Positions 6,230-63,195 of a stretch of DNA of 64,000 bases are shown one piece after another. The notes under the pieces are model-generated. The model saw only the letters and a program-made list of their open reading frames with translations, did no database searches and was not told the DNA's origin. Both the position numbers and the translations under genes were made by a program. Each line of letters begins with the position of its first letter. Positions within the stretch are counted from its first letter, which is position 1. Source of the stretch: Aliiroseovarius lamellibrachiae (GTDB lineage: Bacteria; Pseudomonadota; Alphaproteobacteria; Rhodobacterales; Rhodobacteraceae); NCBI RefSeq assembly GCF_018599245.1, contig NZ_JAHEVJ010000001.1, positions 558,001-622,000 of the forward strand, given 5' to 3'.

Positions 6230-7015
6230 ATGCAATTCAGTGCCAACCTCAACGTGATGATCAAAGCCGCGCGTGCCGCAGGCCGCAGCCTTGTGAAAGA
6301 CTTCCGCGAGGTCGAGAACCTTCAGGTGTCGACAAAAGGCGCGGGTGACTTTGTCAGCAAGGCCGATATTGCTGCTGAAGAGATCATCAAAGAAGAGCTG
6401 ATGGAAGCACGCCCCAACTATGGTTGGATCGGCGAAGAGGGGGGCGCCCAAGAGGGCAAAGACCCGACACGTCGTTGGATCGTTGACCCACTGGACGGCA
6501 CCACCAACTATCTGCACGGTCTGCCACATTGGGCAATCTCGATTGCGCTGGAGCATAAAGGCGAAGTGGTGGCTGGGGTCATTTTTGACGCCGCCAAAGA
6601 CGAGATGTTCATCGCCGAAAAAGGCGCGGGCGCTTGGATGAACCAAACCCGTTTGCGTGCCTCGGGCCGTTCGCGCATGATCGAAAGCATTTTTGCAACG
6701 GGTCTGCCCTTTGGGGGCCGTTCCGACCTGCCAGCCACCCTTCAGGATCTGGCGCGCTTGCTGCCGGCAACCGCTGGTGTGCGCCGCTTTGGCTCTGCCG
6801 CGCTTGATTTGGCCTATGTGGCCGCGGGGCGTTACGATGGCTATTGGGAACGCCGCCTGAACTCATGGGATATCGCCGCTGGTTTGGTGATTGCCAAAGA
6901 GGCTGGCGCATTTGTGCAGCCGATCGATCCGGCAGGCAACATTCTGGAAGACGGCGAACTGATCGTGGCCAACGAGCAGATCTTTGAAAAGTTTGCCAAA
7001 GTCATCCGGGACTAA
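6230..7015 (+). CDS. suhB: Inositol-1-monophosphatase family protein (SuhB-type)
   Basis: The 261-aa product is a lithium-sensitive Mg-dependent sugar phosphatase. The metal-binding motifs are intact: GEEGG near residue 68, WIVDPLDGTTNYLHG (about 83-97) and WDIAAGLVIAKEAGA near 210. Substrates in this family include inositol monophosphate; SuhB members also act with ribosome/Nus factors. AGGAGC precedes the ATG by about eight bases. It stands alone between metR and a strong terminator. The exact in vivo substrate is undetermined. Confidence 0.92.
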   Translation: MQFSANLNVMIKAARAAGRSLVKDFREVENLQVSTKGAGDFVSKADIAAEEIIKEELMEARPNYGWIGEEGGAQEGKDPTRRWIVDPLDGTTNYLHGLPHWAISIALEHKGEVVAGVIFDAAKDEMFIAEKGAGAWMNQTRLRASGRSRMIESIFATGLPFGGRSDLPATLQDLARLLPATAGVRRFGSAALDLAYVAAGRYDGYWERRLNSWDIAAGLVIAKEAGAFVQPIDPAGNILEDGELIVANEQIFEKFAKVIRD

Positions 7016-54609: not shown

Positions 54610-54685
54610 GCCCCTATAGCTCAGCTGGTAGAGCAACTGATTTGTAATCAGTAGGTCCGCGGTTCGAGTCCGTGTGGGGGCACCA
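54610..54685 (+). tRNA. tRNA-Thr (anticodon UGU)
   Basis: A 76-base tRNA. GCCCCTA (54610-54616) pairs with TGGGGGC (54675-54681); the anticodon stem CTGAT/ATCAG encloses TTTGTAA, giving anticodon TGT; T-arm GGTTCGAGTCC and encoded CCA are present. It is the likely attachment site of the element that starts immediately behind it. Confidence 0.95.
54640..54685 (+). other. Candidate attL within tRNA-Thr 3' half
   Basis: The integrase gene ends 75 bases after the tRNA and points towards it, the usual layout for elements that integrate in a tRNA 3' end and regenerate it. The direct repeat that would mark the other end is not in the window, so the core length is not known. Confidence 0.55.
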
Positions 54686-54759
54686 TTCAATCCTTAAGTA
54701 TCTGAAATTAATGGGATATTTTGAATTGTGGACCGCGTTGGGCTGGTCTGTGGTCCACA

Positions 54760-55851
54760 TTACCAACCGAATCCTGAAATCGACTTCATAGCTTCAGCTG
54801 CCATTGCGCGACGCTCTGCCCCTTTTGTGTAAATTGCTGACGTGCTTGGTTGGGTGTGAGAAAGAACCGCCATAATCTGGTGTTCACTGCATCCCTCTTC
54901 TGCCAGTAGTTCAGCAAGCGCCTTTCTCACCCCATGTGATGACCGCCCTTTCAGCCCCGCTTCGTCACAGCGTTTGCGAAGCCAATTTCTATAGCTGTCT
55001 GCGTTCTTAAATGGCTTCCCGTGTTCACTGAGGATGTAAGCATCCCCAATGCGGGCCACGGCAGTTATGGCATCACGTAACGGTTTTGCCATTGGGATTT
55101 CGACATATGCAGCGCCGCGCTTTTTGGGTTGCCACCCTAGCCAACGCACCTCGTGACTGCTGAACTCTTGCCCGCGACCAAGCCAAATAGCATCATTTGA
55201 CCTTGCAGCGGTAAACATGTGCAGAGTTAGAGCTAGGTGGGCCATAGTGCCTTGTGGGTGGCGCTCTTTGAAATTCCTTAAATCCTCCGCTGTCCAAGGG
55301 GTTGCGCCGCCTTGGCTACGGTGGATCTTCTTAATTCCAACAAGGGGGTTTACCTCTGCGTGGCCGGAATCGCATGCCCAATGATACATCGACCTGGCCG
55401 CTTTGATCATGTTGTCAGCTTCAGCTGGAGTAGCAGCTCTTGCGTCTCGGACTTTAACGAAAGCGGCAGTAGGGGCGTTCAGGCTCATTTCGCCATAGAG
55501 ATCGTCGCTGTCTGTCTTGTGTTGGCATAGTCGAGTTAACAAGCTTTTGCGTTGGCGCAAAGTGGCAGGAGAGGCTTGTTTTGCTGCAACCATTTTCTCT
55601 AGGTGCAGTAGGTACTTGTCGGTTAGCCATTTGATAGATTGGCGAACCGCCAGTGAAGCAGGTTCATATTCCAGTTCGATACCGGCGCGTGCGCTCCAGT
55701 AGTGTTCAGAGAATTTTGGGTGGTCGAGATCCACGTTGATGCGTATTTTTCGGTTTGGAAAGCCTTCAACGCGCACCCTAAGGCGCTGCTTTCCTGATTT
55801 CAAAGTTTCCACTGTCAATCCGGGAAAGTTCTTGCGCATGTTATCTACCAT
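54760..55851 (-). CDS. Tyrosine recombinase (phage integrase)
   Basis: A 363-aa integrase. Core-binding SAM-like region about residues 70-160; catalytic domain about 180-360 with Arg217 (TAARSNDAIWL), His306 and Arg309 (SSHGVRKALAELL), His332 (LSHTQPSTSAIY) and nucleophile Tyr341. It integrates and excises the element, most likely at the tRNA-Thr 3' end. It overlaps the stop codon of the preceding 57-aa gene by seven bases and is the last gene of the leftward polycistron. Confidence 0.95.
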   Translation of the reverse strand: MVDNMRKNFPGLTVETLKSGKQRLRVRVEGFPNRKIRINVDLDHPKFSEHYWSARAGIELEYEPASLAVRQSIKWLTDKYLLHLEKMVAAKQASPATLRQRKSLLTRLCQHKTDSDDLYGEMSLNAPTAAFVKVRDARAATPAEADNMIKAARSMYHWACDSGHAEVNPLVGIKKIHRSQGGATPWTAEDLRNFKERHPQGTMAHLALTLHMFTAARSNDAIWLGRGQEFSSHEVRWLGWQPKKRGAAYVEIPMAKPLRDAITAVARIGDAYILSEHGKPFKNADSYRNWLRKRCDEAGLKGRSSHGVRKALAELLAEEGCSEHQIMAVLSHTQPSTSAIYTKGAERRAMAAEAMKSISGFGW

Positions 55852-59378: not shown

Positions 59379-59642
59379 TCAGTTCTTGCCGTCTTGGCGA
59401 CGCATGCGCCGGATGCATCGGTTCATTATCAATTGACGCTCGCTGACTATCTCGGCGCGACGTGCCTCAAGGCGGTTGATCCGTGCTTGCAGTTTTGCGA
59501 GGCGGCGCAATTCAATGGCTTTGGTGAAGTGAAGCCATGGGGTGCGAAGTCCAAAGGGTTCAGTGGGTTGCGCGCTATTGTGGCCAATTTTTGGTGTTTC
59601 TTGTGTATCGGTATCAGCTACACAAGAAACGTTTGCATTCAT
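59379..59642 (-). CDS. Small phage protein with coiled-coil
   Basis: An 87-aa protein with PKIGHNSAQP near residue 17, a motif common in alphaproteobacterial phage proteins, and a basic helix (LRRLAKLQARINRLEARRAEIVSERQL) that may be a coiled coil. Overlaps the NYN gene stop by four bases (ATGA). Function unknown. Confidence 0.6.
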   Translation of the reverse strand: MNANVSCVADTDTQETPKIGHNSAQPTEPFGLRTPWLHFTKAIELRRLAKLQARINRLEARRAEIVSERQLIMNRCIRRMRRQDGKN

Positions 59643-60184
59643 GCTGCTACTGCAGGGCGAGGAGGGCGGCTAACAGCGTCGCGCAACCCATCCAATTCGA
59701 TGAACGTGTCTGCCTGACGGCGCAGTTCATCAGCGATGAAATGTGGGGAGGTTTTGATGCTGGACACCACACTGACGCGTTTGCCTTGTGCTTGAAGGTG
59801 TTGGGTCAGGGCGCAAAAATCACGGTCGCCGCTGAATAGGATGATGTGGTCGATGTGTGGGGCCAGTTTTATGGCCTCCACGGTCAATTCGACGCTCATG
59901 TTGCCTTTTACTTTGCGCTGGCCGTACTCGCCCGTGTATTCGCGCGCGGGCTTAGACACGATGTTCCAGCCGTTGTATTGCATGAAATCAACCAGTGGCC
60001 GCAGGGGCTGGAATTCTTCGGTTTCACAAATGGCGGTGAAATAGCTGGCGCGTACCAATCGGCCTGCCGTTTCAAAATGGGTCAACAGACGCTTATAATC
60101 CACGTCCATTTCCAGCTTTTTTGCGGTGGCGTAAAGGTTGGGGCCGTCGACAAAAAGGGCAATACGTTCGTCATTGTAAATCAT
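59639..60184 (-). CDS. NYN-domain (LabA/DUF88-like) putative RNase
   Basis: A 181-aa PIN-like protein. Acidic active-site residues are visible in IALFVDGPNLYATAKK, VKGNMSVELTVEAIKL (with the Asp replaced by Glu in the second site), and ILFSGDRDFCALTQHLQAQGKRVSVV. NYN proteins are metal-dependent RNases. The start at 60184 is chosen because the 18 residues upstream are not family-like. The acidic positions VD-G-N, V-L, S-GD-DF match the family. Role in the element unknown. Confidence 0.85.
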   Translation of the reverse strand: MIYNDERIALFVDGPNLYATAKKLEMDVDYKRLLTHFETAGRLVRASYFTAICETEEFQPLRPLVDFMQYNGWNIVSKPAREYTGEYGQRKVKGNMSVELTVEAIKLAPHIDHIILFSGDRDFCALTQHLQAQGKRVSVVSSIKTSPHFIADELRRQADTFIELDGLRDAVSRPPRPAVAA

Positions 60185-60203
60185 GGTTTTGGCTTTCGGT
60201 TGG

Positions 60204-60353
60204 TTACAGGGTTCTAAGCAGGAATGTTGTTGTGGCACCGATCAGCACGCCAAGGGTGGTTCCGCTGACAAGGCCTGAGAGGAAAGCCCTCAGATCGCGG
60301 CGTCGGCGTACTTGGTTGCTGAATTTTAGTGCTTGATGGGATAGGTGTTGCAT
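60204..60353 (-). CDS. Small single-segment membrane protein
   Basis: A 49-aa protein with basic N-terminus (QALKFSNQVRRRRDLRAF) and one hydrophobic segment (LSGLVSGTTLGVLIGATTTFLL). GAGG precedes the ATG at 60353, and the gene follows the 91-aa gene by four bases. Small membrane proteins of this kind occur in phage early regions. Confidence 0.5.
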   Translation of the reverse strand: MQHLSHQALKFSNQVRRRRDLRAFLSGLVSGTTLGVLIGATTTFLLRTL

Positions 60354-60633: not shown

Positions 60634-60944
60634 TATGCTGCCCCTAATTGATCTGGGGCGGGATGGACGGTGATGAAGCCATCATCTTCGATGTCTTCGA
60701 TCTGGCAGAGTTTGCCCGCGAGACGTTTCCAGTTTGCGATTGCCTCTTCTTCTGTTGCACCGTCAGCGGTGATTGCGTGAAGGTCCAGTTCCCAGCGGTG
60801 TGATCGGTCGCCAGATGGCGGATCAAAGCGGCCAAATGTTTCCTGCACCTCATTTACAAAGGCGTCGTGCTGTTCGCTGGTGTCGCGACACTCAAGATTG
60901 TGCAGGAATGCGGGAAGGCGGTTGTGAAGCGTGTTTAGCATCAC
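60633..60944 (-). CDS. Hypothetical phage protein (103 aa)
   Basis: A 103-aa acidic soluble protein with an Ala/Glu-rich helix (TADGATEEEAIANWKRLAGKL). No family recognised. Starts four bases inside the preceding gene (ATGA overlap). Confidence 0.65.
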   Translation of the reverse strand: MMLNTLHNRLPAFLHNLECRDTSEQHDAFVNEVQETFGRFDPPSGDRSHRWELDLHAITADGATEEEAIANWKRLAGKLCQIEDIEDDGFITVHPAPDQLGAA

Positions 60945-61315
60945 GCGGCCCTCGTGATTTGGGCCAACACATCAGTGGCGGCGTTCCGTTCTGTTGCGTC
61001 TTGTGAGTGTTCTAGGATGGTGTTGCAGGCGGTGAAGATCGCGAAGTTTGATTTCCCGTCACCCAAGAGAGTTGCGCGCGCTTTGCGCAGCTGGTCGTTC
61101 GCCTGATTGCGGAAGCTTTGTTCCAAGGCATGATCTTGCGCTTGGCGATGGGCCAGCAACTCACGGCACATTTCTGGAAGGGCTGTGGCCAGCAGGGCGC
61201 GTGTCTCGGTGTTAAATTCACCGCGTGTCGCGTCATAGTTTGGGTTTGCCAGTTCTGTCAGCAGGTCGTTGCTGATCAACGGCTTTGGTTCGATTGCGCT
61301 CATGTCTGCCTCCAT
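60941..61315 (-). CDS. Hypothetical phage protein (124 aa), first gene of leftward operon
   Basis: A 124-aa mostly helical protein (LISNDLLTELANPNYDATRGEF..., RAQARKARATLLGD-type helices). First gene after the operator-bearing promoter. No family recognised. GGAGG precedes the in-frame ATG at 61303, so this inner start (MSAIEPK, 120 aa) is a fair alternative to 61315. Confidence 0.65.
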   Translation of the reverse strand: MEADMSAIEPKPLISNDLLTELANPNYDATRGEFNTETRALLATALPEMCRELLAHRQAQDHALEQSFRNQANDQLRKARATLLGDGKSNFAIFTACNTILEHSQDATERNAATDVLAQITRAA

Positions 61316-61426
61316 CGGTTTGATGAAGGCACATTATCCAAAAAAAATGGACTTGCAAGAAATAAATCCAAAAAATATGGATTACTGGTGGTTGCTCTTA
61401 AATGCGACCCCTTTGTTTTTAGTGTG
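61316..61426 (-). promoter_or_regulatory. Leftward early promoter with two repressor-type operators
   Basis: Two copies of the palindrome TCCA-N7-TGGA lie at 61337-61351 and 61367-61381, centres 30 bp apart (about three helical turns). A possible -10 element, GATAAT on the minus strand, overlaps the first copy (61333-61338). This is where the promoter of the thirteen-gene leftward operon must be. Confidence 0.75.
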
Positions 61427-61714
61427 TCACATCAGCAGAAGTGGGGTGAGTTGACCAATGATGCATCCGAGTAGGGCGTTGCCCGATTGCTTTGGTGGAA
61501 TTTTCATGGCGCCGGCAAGGACAGCAATGGCGACTGCCCCAGCTATGATCGCAAGCAGTAAGTTTTGCGCTACGGCGCTTGCACCGATGCTGGCGAAAAT
61601 GAAGGCCACCGCTAAAACGGCTCCTTTCCAAGGCTCTCCGCCTGCAATGCGAATGCCAATTGCAGCCAAAATGATTGTGCTCAACATGGCCGTTATTATC
61701 AGACTTCCTGTCAT
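61427..61714 (-). CDS. Small polytopic membrane protein
   Basis: A 95-aa protein with three hydrophobic segments (about residues 2-22, 30-48, 50-70) and a hydrophobic C-terminus. AGGAGAG precedes the ATG at 61714. Located upstream of the operator-bearing promoter, so probably transcribed separately. May be a superinfection or envelope protein; nothing indicates its role. Confidence 0.6.
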   Translation of the reverse strand: MTGSLIITAMLSTIILAAIGIRIAGGEPWKGAVLAVAFIFASIGASAVAQNLLLAIIAGAVAIAVLAGAMKIPPKQSGNALLGCIIGQLTPLLLM

Positions 61715-61973
61715 TGTCGCTCTCCTGGGGGCTACCGTTCGCGCGATCATAGGTAGGTGTCAAATGCTTGGGTATCTATTTTTGGTTGTGTCAAGAGTGA
61801 TGTGGTTCATGATTGACGCAAAAGTTGCGCTTTTCAGGGGCATTGGTCGAAGTGCTTGGGGGTATTTATATTTTTACCACCTGCGCACTCCATTATTTTT
61901 ACCTACGGAGGGCAAATGCGAATGCCGTTAATCTACCGATTGGCTCGAGTTGCTAAATTACTGGGAATGGATC

Positions 61974-62309
61974 TTAATCTTGTGTTTGATCCCATTCACT
62001 ATTTGCGCGGTCTAGTGCTTCGAAGAGGCTCTGCTGAACGTCAGCAGGGAGCTGAGAGAAATCCCCGTTAATTACAAAATTAAAGTCAATTCTGTGCGCG
62101 CGGTACAGATATTTCATAACGTCTCTATTTGGAAACTGAAGTCCCTTTTCGATGTTATTGTAAGAGGTTTTTGATATTCCGCAGGCGCGTGCGAAATCTT
62201 GCTGCTTTTCAAAGCCGCTCGTGTACCGTGCCGCCTTTACTCGAATGGCGCTTGCTTTCACGCCCATGTCGCCACGGTGTGCGAGGCTTTCTTTTTGCTC
62301 AATATCCAT
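61974..62309 (-). CDS. XRE-family repressor (CI/C2-like)
   Basis: A 111-aa protein with a helix-turn-helix (about residues 22-75: RYTSGFEKQQDFARACGISKTSYNNIEKGLQFPNRDVMKYLYRAHRI) followed by a short C-terminal region without the LexA-type cleavage domain. It is divergent from the Cro-like gene at 62398 and is probably the immunity repressor acting at the TCCA-N7-TGGA palindromes. Small single-domain repressors are found in many prophages; induction would need a separate antirepressor. Confidence 0.85.
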   Translation of the reverse strand: MDIEQKESLAHRGDMGVKASAIRVKAARYTSGFEKQQDFARACGISKTSYNNIEKGLQFPNRDVMKYLYRAHRIDFNFVINGDFSQLPADVQQSLFEALDRANSEWDQTQD

Positions 62310-62397
62310 GGCTTATTTTTACGCCTTGTCCAAAAAAAATGAACTGATCTTGAGATGGATATGGACAGTCCACAAATTATGGATTAATGCGTTATGC
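62310..62397. promoter_or_regulatory. Repressor/Cro divergent control region with two operators
   Basis: TCCA-N7-TGAA (62329-62343, one mismatch) and TCCA-N7-TGGA (62369-62383) lie 40 bp apart, centre to centre. A further half-site pair TGGA-CAG-TCCA is at 62362-62372. These match the palindromes ahead of the leftward operon. Confidence 0.7.
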
Positions 62398-62634
62398 ATG
62401 ACAAATGCATCCGAAATCTGTGACAGACTTGGCCGAAAGATCATGGCGGACAGCCTTGGCGTTGGAGTGACAACTATTAGCAATGCTGCTGTATCGGGTG
62501 TTTTCCCATCTAAGTGGTACGTTGTTGTGAAGGGGTTGTGTCGTGAACAAGGTGTCGACTGCCCTGATGGCCTTTTTAACTTCATTAAGCAATCTGCGAA
62601 CGTGGATGGGCCTTTGCAGGAGGGTGTTCGATGA
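62398..62634 (+). CDS. Cro-like regulator
   Basis: A 78-aa protein with a predicted HTH (about residues 4-50: EICDRLGRKIMADSLGVGVTTISNAAVSGVFPSKWYVVV) of the Cro/YdaS type. It is divergent from the XRE repressor and transcribed rightwards, the usual cro position. No clear ribosome site; start assigned by position. Confidence 0.7.
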   Translation: MTNASEICDRLGRKIMADSLGVGVTTISNAAVSGVFPSKWYVVVKGLCREQGVDCPDGLFNFIKQSANVDGPLQEGVR

Positions 62635-62712: not shown

Positions 62713-63195
62713 ATGCCTGATTTTCGCAAGATTGTTCGCGCCAATATGAAATCGCTGGTCGATTGGTTTGGTTGCTATGACGCGGTGGCGGAAACATTCA
62801 ACGCCCGATGGGGTGGGGGGGCCAGCAAGGGCACGGTCAGCAAGAAGGTCACGGGAAATCTGGACTGGACGGTTGCTGATGTGATTGCCCTTGAGGATGC
62901 ATCTGGTCGTTATCCTGTGACACGTATGCTGGCGCGTCGGCTGGAAAGCCGCCCTGCGCAGGTTGGTGGTAGTTTGCTGCAAGATGGGTCCAACATCGCC
63001 CGCGAAAGTGGCGAGGCGATTTCAGCCATTTTGGCGGCAGAGCAATCCAGCTGCGCAGATGAAAAAGCGCAAGCTATCAAAGAAATTGATGAGGCTATGT
63101 ATGCCATGCGCCAAGCGCGGGCGCGGCTTGAGGGTTCTTCTTGTCTAAAACATGCGGTGCCTGTTGAACCGGTCGAACGAGGGAGTGCGGAATGA
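62713..63195 (+). CDS. Phage regulatory protein, CII/GcrA-like (tentative)
   Basis: A 160-aa protein with a KIVRANMKSLVDWFGCYDAVAETFNARWGGG N-terminus resembling HTH-containing phage regulatory proteins, VSKKVTGNLDWTVADVIALEDASGRYPVTRML in the middle and a helical C-terminus. In Rhodobacteraceae prophages such proteins follow cro. Annotated as regulatory by position and predicted HTH only. AACGAGG lies upstream. Confidence 0.55.
   Translation: MPDFRKIVRANMKSLVDWFGCYDAVAETFNARWGGGASKGTVSKKVTGNLDWTVADVIALEDASGRYPVTRMLARRLESRPAQVGGSLLQDGSNIARESGEAISAILAAEQSSCADEKAQAIKEIDEAMYAMRQARARLEGSSCLKHAVPVEPVERGSAE

Follow-up and report, generated by a model that had tools for sequence, protein, structure and literature searches.

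The window, that is, the whole 64-kb stretch of DNA that was analysed, contains a short putative helix-turn-helix (HTH) repressor gene and, divergent from it, a gene for a Cro-like protein, both set among phage genes. The genes needed for what follows are these.

54610-54685, tRNA-Thr gene
54760-55851, minus strand, integrase gene, next after the tRNA-Thr gene
59639-60238, minus strand, gene of the leftward operon with a NYN domain (E 1e-32)
60941-61315, minus strand, first gene of the leftward operon after the promoter PL, with no assigned function and with GGAGG ahead of its ATG
61974-62309, minus strand, XRE-type repressor of 111 aa, predicted recognition helix at residues 47-54
62398-62634, plus strand, Cro-like protein of 78 aa, predicted recognition helix at residues 24-33
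62713-63195, plus strand, CII-like (CP76) regulator downstream of cro (PF06892 at E 3e-5, below its cut-off; phrog_101 at E 5e-6)

Beyond the integrase, the leftward genes encode a methyltransferase, a SNF2-type helicase and the NYN-domain protein, a gene resembling the last being seen by eye in the related locus L021. To the right of the switch lie the CII-like gene, an HD-type nucleotidase-like gene, a replication-like gene, an antiterminator, the terminase subunits and the portal, followed further right by a head protease, a major head protein, baseplate, sheath, tape measure and endolysin. From this gene content the element reads as a contractile-tailed prophage, whose left end is probably marked by the tRNA-Thr gene beside the integrase (54610-55851). 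No right end or attachment site was found before the end of the contig, and a 220-bp query with the end of the tRNA-Thr gene gave a match of only 13 bases in L018/L019. Between the repressor and the leftward operators, where lambda has rex, lies a 107-aa open reading frame (61427-61750, minus strand), hydrophobic by eye and without a family match, which could be a superinfection-exclusion or lysogenic gene; a similar frame is seen by eye in L022 (at about 1702-1989), with none obvious in L020 or L021.

What can be said of the two regulators themselves? The original prediction held that the repressor lacks an autocleavage (S24) domain, and its predicted model agrees, being that of a helical HTH protein in which a single C-terminal helix comes last; matches to PF00717 occur at two places in the genome, both on a contig other than the repressor's. 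Its domain scores (HTH_19 at E 3e-5, HTH_3 at E 1.5e-4) fall under the Pfam cut-offs, and among the PHROGs it matches phrog_2328, 'transcriptional repressor', at E 2e-6. Foldseek comparison of the model gave probabilities up to 1.00 (SinR, P22 c2), with no match at E 0.001. The RstR family NF041951 of NCBIfam, like the repressor here a family of short HTH phage repressors, scores E 1e-4 and 22.5 bits against a cut-off of 80, which places the protein outside that family. For the Cro-like protein the start is best placed at 62398. Profile searches of Pfam, PHROGs and NCBIfam gave no match to any sequence family; the best Foldseek match of its model, weak at E 0.21 (probability 0.98, 28% identity), is to the Cro family of Xfaso 1 and Pfl 6 (PDB 3bd1, 5w8y). 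An antirepressor, which induction had been expected to need, was not seen among the early proteins scanned with PHROGs, a scan that covered part of the small open reading frames.

Four palindromes and a conserved layout

Around these genes we place four putative operators and a half-site.

61337-61351, minus strand, OL2, operator of the leftward promoter, filling its -35/-10 spacer (exact motif; register conserved in relatives)
61367-61381, minus strand, OL1, second operator, 30 bp upstream of OL2 (exact motif)
62329-62343, minus strand, OR3, hybrid operator with one half in its own alphabet and a TTCA half overlapping the probable -35 of the repressor promoter
62355-62359, minus strand, central half-site TCCAT between OR1 and OR3 (own-alphabet half-site, moderate support)
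62369-62383, plus strand, OR1, strong operator in the spacer of the Cro promoter PR (exact motif; stacked view; promoter profile)

As originally described, the motif TCCA-N7-TGGA is exact at OL1, OL2 and OR1, the copy at OR3 (TCCAAAAAAAATGAA) has one mismatch, and the pairs are spaced 30 and 40 bp. The three exact copies are the only ones in the window, all at the immunity region; since 17 of 100 shuffled windows reach three as well (mean 1.25), the bare count is not significant. One-mismatch matches number 18 in the window where 27.7 are expected, and the whole genome (3,343,139 bases) holds 37 exact sites, the reversed control 47. The bare motif is thus not enriched in window or genome. All four sites, in addition, have an A/T core, and the pattern that includes it, TCCAMAAWWWATGRA, finds 4 perfect matches in the 3.34-Mb genome, none of them outside the immunity locus, and just 2 further sites at one mismatch; being composed from the four copies themselves, it was bound to match them. 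Frequent occurrence elsewhere had been named as the observation that would speak against operators: it holds for the bare motif, with 34 of its 37 exact genome sites elsewhere, but not for the A/T-core form, which has four of four perfect matches at the immunity locus.

Among 61 related genomes a search with the repressor returned the genome itself and one weak match (E 6e-4), and no record of the phage collection matched the window repressor. Sampling of 393 other genomes of the family Rhodobacteraceae gave strong relatives in 10, and a 15-row alignment gave 43 viral-contig loci, two already known ones included; a class-level sample of 385 genomes added no further strong member, its best new match (E 6e-16) being without the layout. 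When five family repressors were compared with phages, four found nothing and that of L073 found 9 weak partial matches, none in Paracoccus; against plasmids, the L073 repressor had one match, at 40% identity, in Sulfitobacter. The nearest relatives, at 77-91% repressor identity, belong to Tateyamaria, Pseudooceanicola and one viral contig. In all, 55 loci were compared, or 48 after removal of 7 with identical repressors, and 47 after removal of L028, in which both the sites and Cro are missing; the promoter profile, the OR3 design and the leader analysis used 32 representatives below 80% identity. Not counted as extra rows were L107 and the repeats of contigs already included, L023, L035, L036, L065 and L066. 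Repressor length across the family is 100-127 aa, and a Cro-like reading frame is present in 47 of the 48 non-redundant loci. In L093 the matched start lacks an ATG.

In the nearest relatives all four sites recur in the same two places with at most one mismatch each, spaced 40 bp at OR and 30 bp at OL (49 bp in L022). TCCA sites are still found at 48-58% repressor identity, and relatives down to 40% mostly keep the layout; those that lack TCCA-N7-TGGA mostly carry another 4-N7-4 palindrome at the same places, namely TACA-N7-TGTA, CTCA-N7-TGAG, TCCG-N7-CGGA or TCTG-N7-CAGA. With the upstream regions of the 55 loci stacked, the distal site lies at about -75 and the proximal one at about -34 in most, the exceptions being the CTCA group (about -95 and -56), L021 (-105 and -65) and L028 (none). 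When the second OR site was sought with unconstrained spacing, the best candidate lay at a distance of 39-41 bp in 45 of 47 loci and of 31 bp in the other two (L033 and L099). OL pairs, for which an automatic rule allowed 25-55 bp, were found in 38 of 48 loci and are spaced 30-31 bp in 37 of these; the remaining pair (L097, 25 bp) is doubtful, and 10 loci gave none. Between OR1 and OR3, an exact half-site in the locus's own alphabet occurs at offset 24 in 10 and at offset 25 in 3 of the 32 representatives, compared with 0 or 1 at each of 16 other offsets, and this central half-operator is possibly a third weak contact; scoring covered the half-site alone, and by eye no full palindrome was seen there.

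Two controls support a 4-N7-4 build. An exact OR palindrome together with an OL pair is found at gap 7 in 25 of 47 loci, the other 22 failing this strict rule, and at gaps 0-4, 6, 8, 10 and 12-14 in 0 or 1; gaps 5, 9 and 11 give 8, 12 and 3, possibly the same palindrome shifted one or two bases in or out. In 20 shuffles of the 47 loci the combination appeared in none. A scan of 3-kb loci for the complete layout in any letters recovered it in 8 of the 10 strong relatives from family genomes, L030 and L033 failing, and in 0 of 12 other chromosomal loci. An impression that the family has a sharp edge, gained by eye from 10 loci of weaker HTH relatives without the layout (the start of L064 being unresolved), was overturned by L050, the one among 20 weak HTH relatives in which the scan found the layout, with TCGA half-sites spaced 41 and 31 bp. 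This match is easier to obtain because TCGA is its own complement. L050, whose repressor matches at E 1e-9, with sites at 1418/1459 and 1936/1967 and GGAGG ahead of the start, is perhaps a distant family member with another alphabet. A separate observation concerns L029 and L034, two switches with the same TCCA alphabet in one genome; the Cro frame of L029 diverges from that of L034 after residue 42, as if frameshifted.

Promoter register and the imperfect site

The following promoter elements were placed on the window from the relatives' profile and from the sequence itself.

61331-61336, minus strand, probable -10 of PL, TAATGT (16-bp spacer by our reading of the sequence)
61353-61358, minus strand, -35 of PL, TTGCAA (from the relatives' profile)
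62316-62321, minus strand, probable -10 of the repressor promoter PRM, TAAAAA, 6 nt ahead of the ATG
62362-62367, plus strand, -35 of PR, TGGACA in the window and TTGACA in several relatives
62385-62390, plus strand, probable -10 of PR, TAATGC (17-bp spacer)

The strong operators appear to overlap the early promoters. When the 32 representatives are aligned on OR1, the -35 of PR shows T in 31, T in 25 and G in 27, and a single base separates the hexamer from the operator; on the far side the -10 begins two bases past OR1 with T (in 27) and A (in 28), its remaining bases being poorly conserved. An operator with one base on either side thus equals the 17-bp spacer of a TTG-type promoter. The same profile emerges for PL on OL2 in 26 representatives (five without a pair and L093 left out), with T 26, T 22 and G 19 at the -35 and T 19 and A 24 at the -10; the consensus sets the 'TA' one base further on than the TAATGT of the window. 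A strict sigma-70 consensus scan of the window region recovered neither PR nor PL. With 1.7 hits expected it returned one, at 62404-62376 on the minus strand; this would be an alternative promoter for the repressor that reads into OR1, and by eye it is not kept in L021 and L073.

Why is one of the four copies imperfect? The family comparison suggests an answer. The TTCA half of OR3 is present in 24 of 32 representatives, across alphabets; exact agreement with the own alphabet is seen for the other half in 24 of 32 and for the TTCA half in 5, counts for which the register was picked to favour a match and the scored half is itself among the up to seven that define the alphabet. With the bases that follow, TTCA often reads TTCACA and resembles TTGACA, and we consider that this half probably belongs to the repressor's own promoter. 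The corresponding -10-like hexamer peaks 6 nt ahead of the ATG, with a mean of 2.97 of 6 matches and at least 4 in 15 of 32 representatives; within 5-7 nt of the ATG, at least 4 of 6 are matched in 20 of 32, whereas five control placements gave 1-6 of 32. Words resembling a Shine-Dalgarno sequence stand ahead of the repressor in 2 of 32 and ahead of cro in 0 of 32, compared with 8% of random windows. The repressor message would accordingly appear to be leaderless, with the weak operator lying over its promoter. As the hexamer at leaderless distance from cro does no better than controls (7 of 32 against 0-11), a leaderless cro message is only possible.

Operator letters and recognition helices

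At least five clearly different alphabets, TCCA, TACA, TCCG, CTCA and TCTG, are used for the half-sites of the family. In the covariation table, which uses manually assigned OR1 registers for L022, L068, L070 and L103 and manually assigned OL sites for L022 and L097, the letters go with residues of both proteins. Where base 4 is A (34 loci), residue 52 of the repressor is N in 32 and residue 29 of Cro is N in 31, L029 and L034 being exceptions with neither; where it is G, S or A occupies repressor residue 52 and S or T Cro residue 29, in 13 of 13 loci each. With C at base 2 (28 loci), T is found at repressor residue 48 in 23 and at Cro residue 25 in 25; with A, in 0 of 11 for either protein; with T (8 loci), in 7 and 4, respectively. 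Since the predicted models place the recognition helices at residues 47-54 of the repressor (pLDDT 95.7) and 24-33 of Cro (pLDDT 83.8), these residues correspond to helix positions 2 and 6 in both. By eye, some helices are alike in the two proteins, with SKAAISNA in both proteins of L092 and KT-Y-H beside KT-M-H in L033.

The half-site letters thus seem to go with helix positions 2 and 6 in repressor and Cro alike, through few independent changes. The loci are related by descent: on a tree built without the helix, bases 2 and 4 change about three times each, and well-supported branches carry 1 or 2 independent change pairs, too few for significance; with 85 columns and many weak forks, the tree cannot provide it. 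In the best tree TACA falls into separate groups, one with A48 and the other (L076, L077, L079) with N48 and Cro Q25. In a ranking of columns by z-scores that ignore ancestry, several non-helix columns score as high as helix columns, among them A40 and V17 of the repressor and M16, C8 and C48 of Cro.

These associations can be read as a recognition code shared by two proteins, a proposal we regard as plausible, at somewhat below even chances. Repressor and Cro, two different HTH proteins, would read the same operator, each using position 2 of its helix for base 2 and position 6 for base 4; joint change of proteins and operators would have re-lettered the region. The fit of each 15-bp operator into a 17-bp promoter spacer would hold geometry and promoters constant. 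On this view the message of the repressor, and perhaps that of cro, would be leaderless.

The proposed switch and its relation to known systems

What is the most likely role of the palindromes? Very probably they are the immunity-region operators of a contractile-tailed temperate phage integrated beside tRNA-Thr and governed by a lambda-like switch. The original proposal put operators at the two positions of the lambda design, one between the repressor and Cro genes and the other preceding the leftward operon. It is supported by the relatives, in which position, spacing and promoter overlap are conserved, and by operator letters that go with the recognition helices of both proteins.

It is improbable that the sites serve mainly the Cro-like protein or another regulator, with the 111-aa XRE protein not acting as maintenance repressor. 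The operator letters are tracked by Cro residues to much the same degree as by those of the repressor, so that sequence alone cannot assign a protein to a site; however, helix positions 2 and 6 of the repressor are associated with the letters just as those of Cro are, and it was by tracing the repressor across relatives that the layout was discovered. Still less probable are operators of an autoregulated XRE regulator of toxin-antitoxin or restriction-controller type. Structures similar to the repressor model include SinR, HipB and C-proteins alongside P22 c2 and 434, and the protein has a weak match to a HipB-type model, but the divergent Cro-like gene is followed by the CII-like gene, an antiterminator and phage structural genes, and a second operator pair precedes leftward genes that include the integrase. 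Finally, a chance A/T-rich cluster conserved merely by recent common descent, as the chance-level counts of the bare motif and the 77-91% identity of the nearest relatives might suggest, is hardly credible when position and spacing are kept and letters differ at 40-58% repressor identity, and when no shuffle reproduces the layout.

From the observed sites, geometry, promoter register and letter-residue association, the lambda-like switch may be pictured as follows. A dimer of the 111-aa repressor would bind each 15-bp site, which consists of 4-bp half-sites and a 7-bp A/T spacer. At OR1 and OL2 it would sit between the -35 and -10 of PR, the promoter of cro, and of PL, the leftward early promoter; since these operators occupy the promoter spacers, we propose that a bound dimer shuts out RNA polymerase and so silences the lytic genes. 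OR3, with a TTCA half that also serves within the -35 of PRM, would be a weak site, filled only at high repressor levels, in negative autoregulation, or by Cro, which would thereby shut off the repressor and commit the phage to lysis. Cooperative binding may occur within the pairs, whose spacings come near to whole numbers of helical turns (about 3 and 4), and a loop may join OL to OR across the roughly 1 kb between them. Because relatives have the same layout with other half-site letters, the prophage would represent one heteroimmunity group of a family across which repressor, Cro and operators changed specificity together. No link to SOS control is claimed, as none of the boxes of the alphaproteobacterial form GTTC-N7-GTTC lies near the switch: two are found in L018 (0.66 expected; 28 of 200 shuffles reach two), one in L019 (0.40 expected) and one in the window at 6848, outside the prophage.

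In the immunity region of lambda, CI and Cro act at OR and OL, each a set of three operators, and the repressor message starts leaderless from PRM. The switch described here resembles it in its divergent repressor and Cro genes, in promoter-overlapping operators, some between these two genes and others preceding the leftward operon, in a second operator set of the same specificity at the leftward early promoter, in the CII-like gene and antiterminator downstream of cro, and in a repressor message that is probably leaderless. It differs in having two full sites in each of OR and OL where lambda has three, with a half-site added at OR in 13 of 32 representatives, in its 15-bp 4-N7-4 sites, and in a repressor of 100-127 aa without an autocleavage domain. 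A correlation of Cro recognition helices with operator half-sites has reportedly been published for lambdoid phages; in the family described here the association appears in repressor and Cro together.

In the literature searched (titles, abstracts and passages), we found no mapped operators of Rhodobacteraceae temperate phages; CI/Cro-like or repressor genes are mentioned, with no operators mapped in the passages concerned (PMC8224337, PMC9044938, PMC6536676, PMC5488378). Passages on temperate phages of Paracoccus, likewise Alphaproteobacteria, describe induction by mitomycin C and CI/Cro-like regulators, with an S24 domain in only one of the CI proteins, and map no operators (PMC6536676). For Cluster A mycobacteriophages, passages report homologous repressors with diverged cognate sites that yield different immunity specificities, name lambda versus 434 as a heteroimmune example, and place most sites outside promoters as one-way 'stoperators' (PMC6550527); in contrast, the layout here is a fixed one of four palindromic sites, and Cro changes too. 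Heteroimmune series of repressors and sites are established in other phages, and to these the present loci add a family with nearly fixed geometry and changing letters. Since it comprises 47 matched sets of repressor, Cro and operators in at least five alphabets, it may allow prediction from sequence of which prophages share immunity, and it supplies a protein-DNA code, open to testing, that requires two proteins to change in concert.
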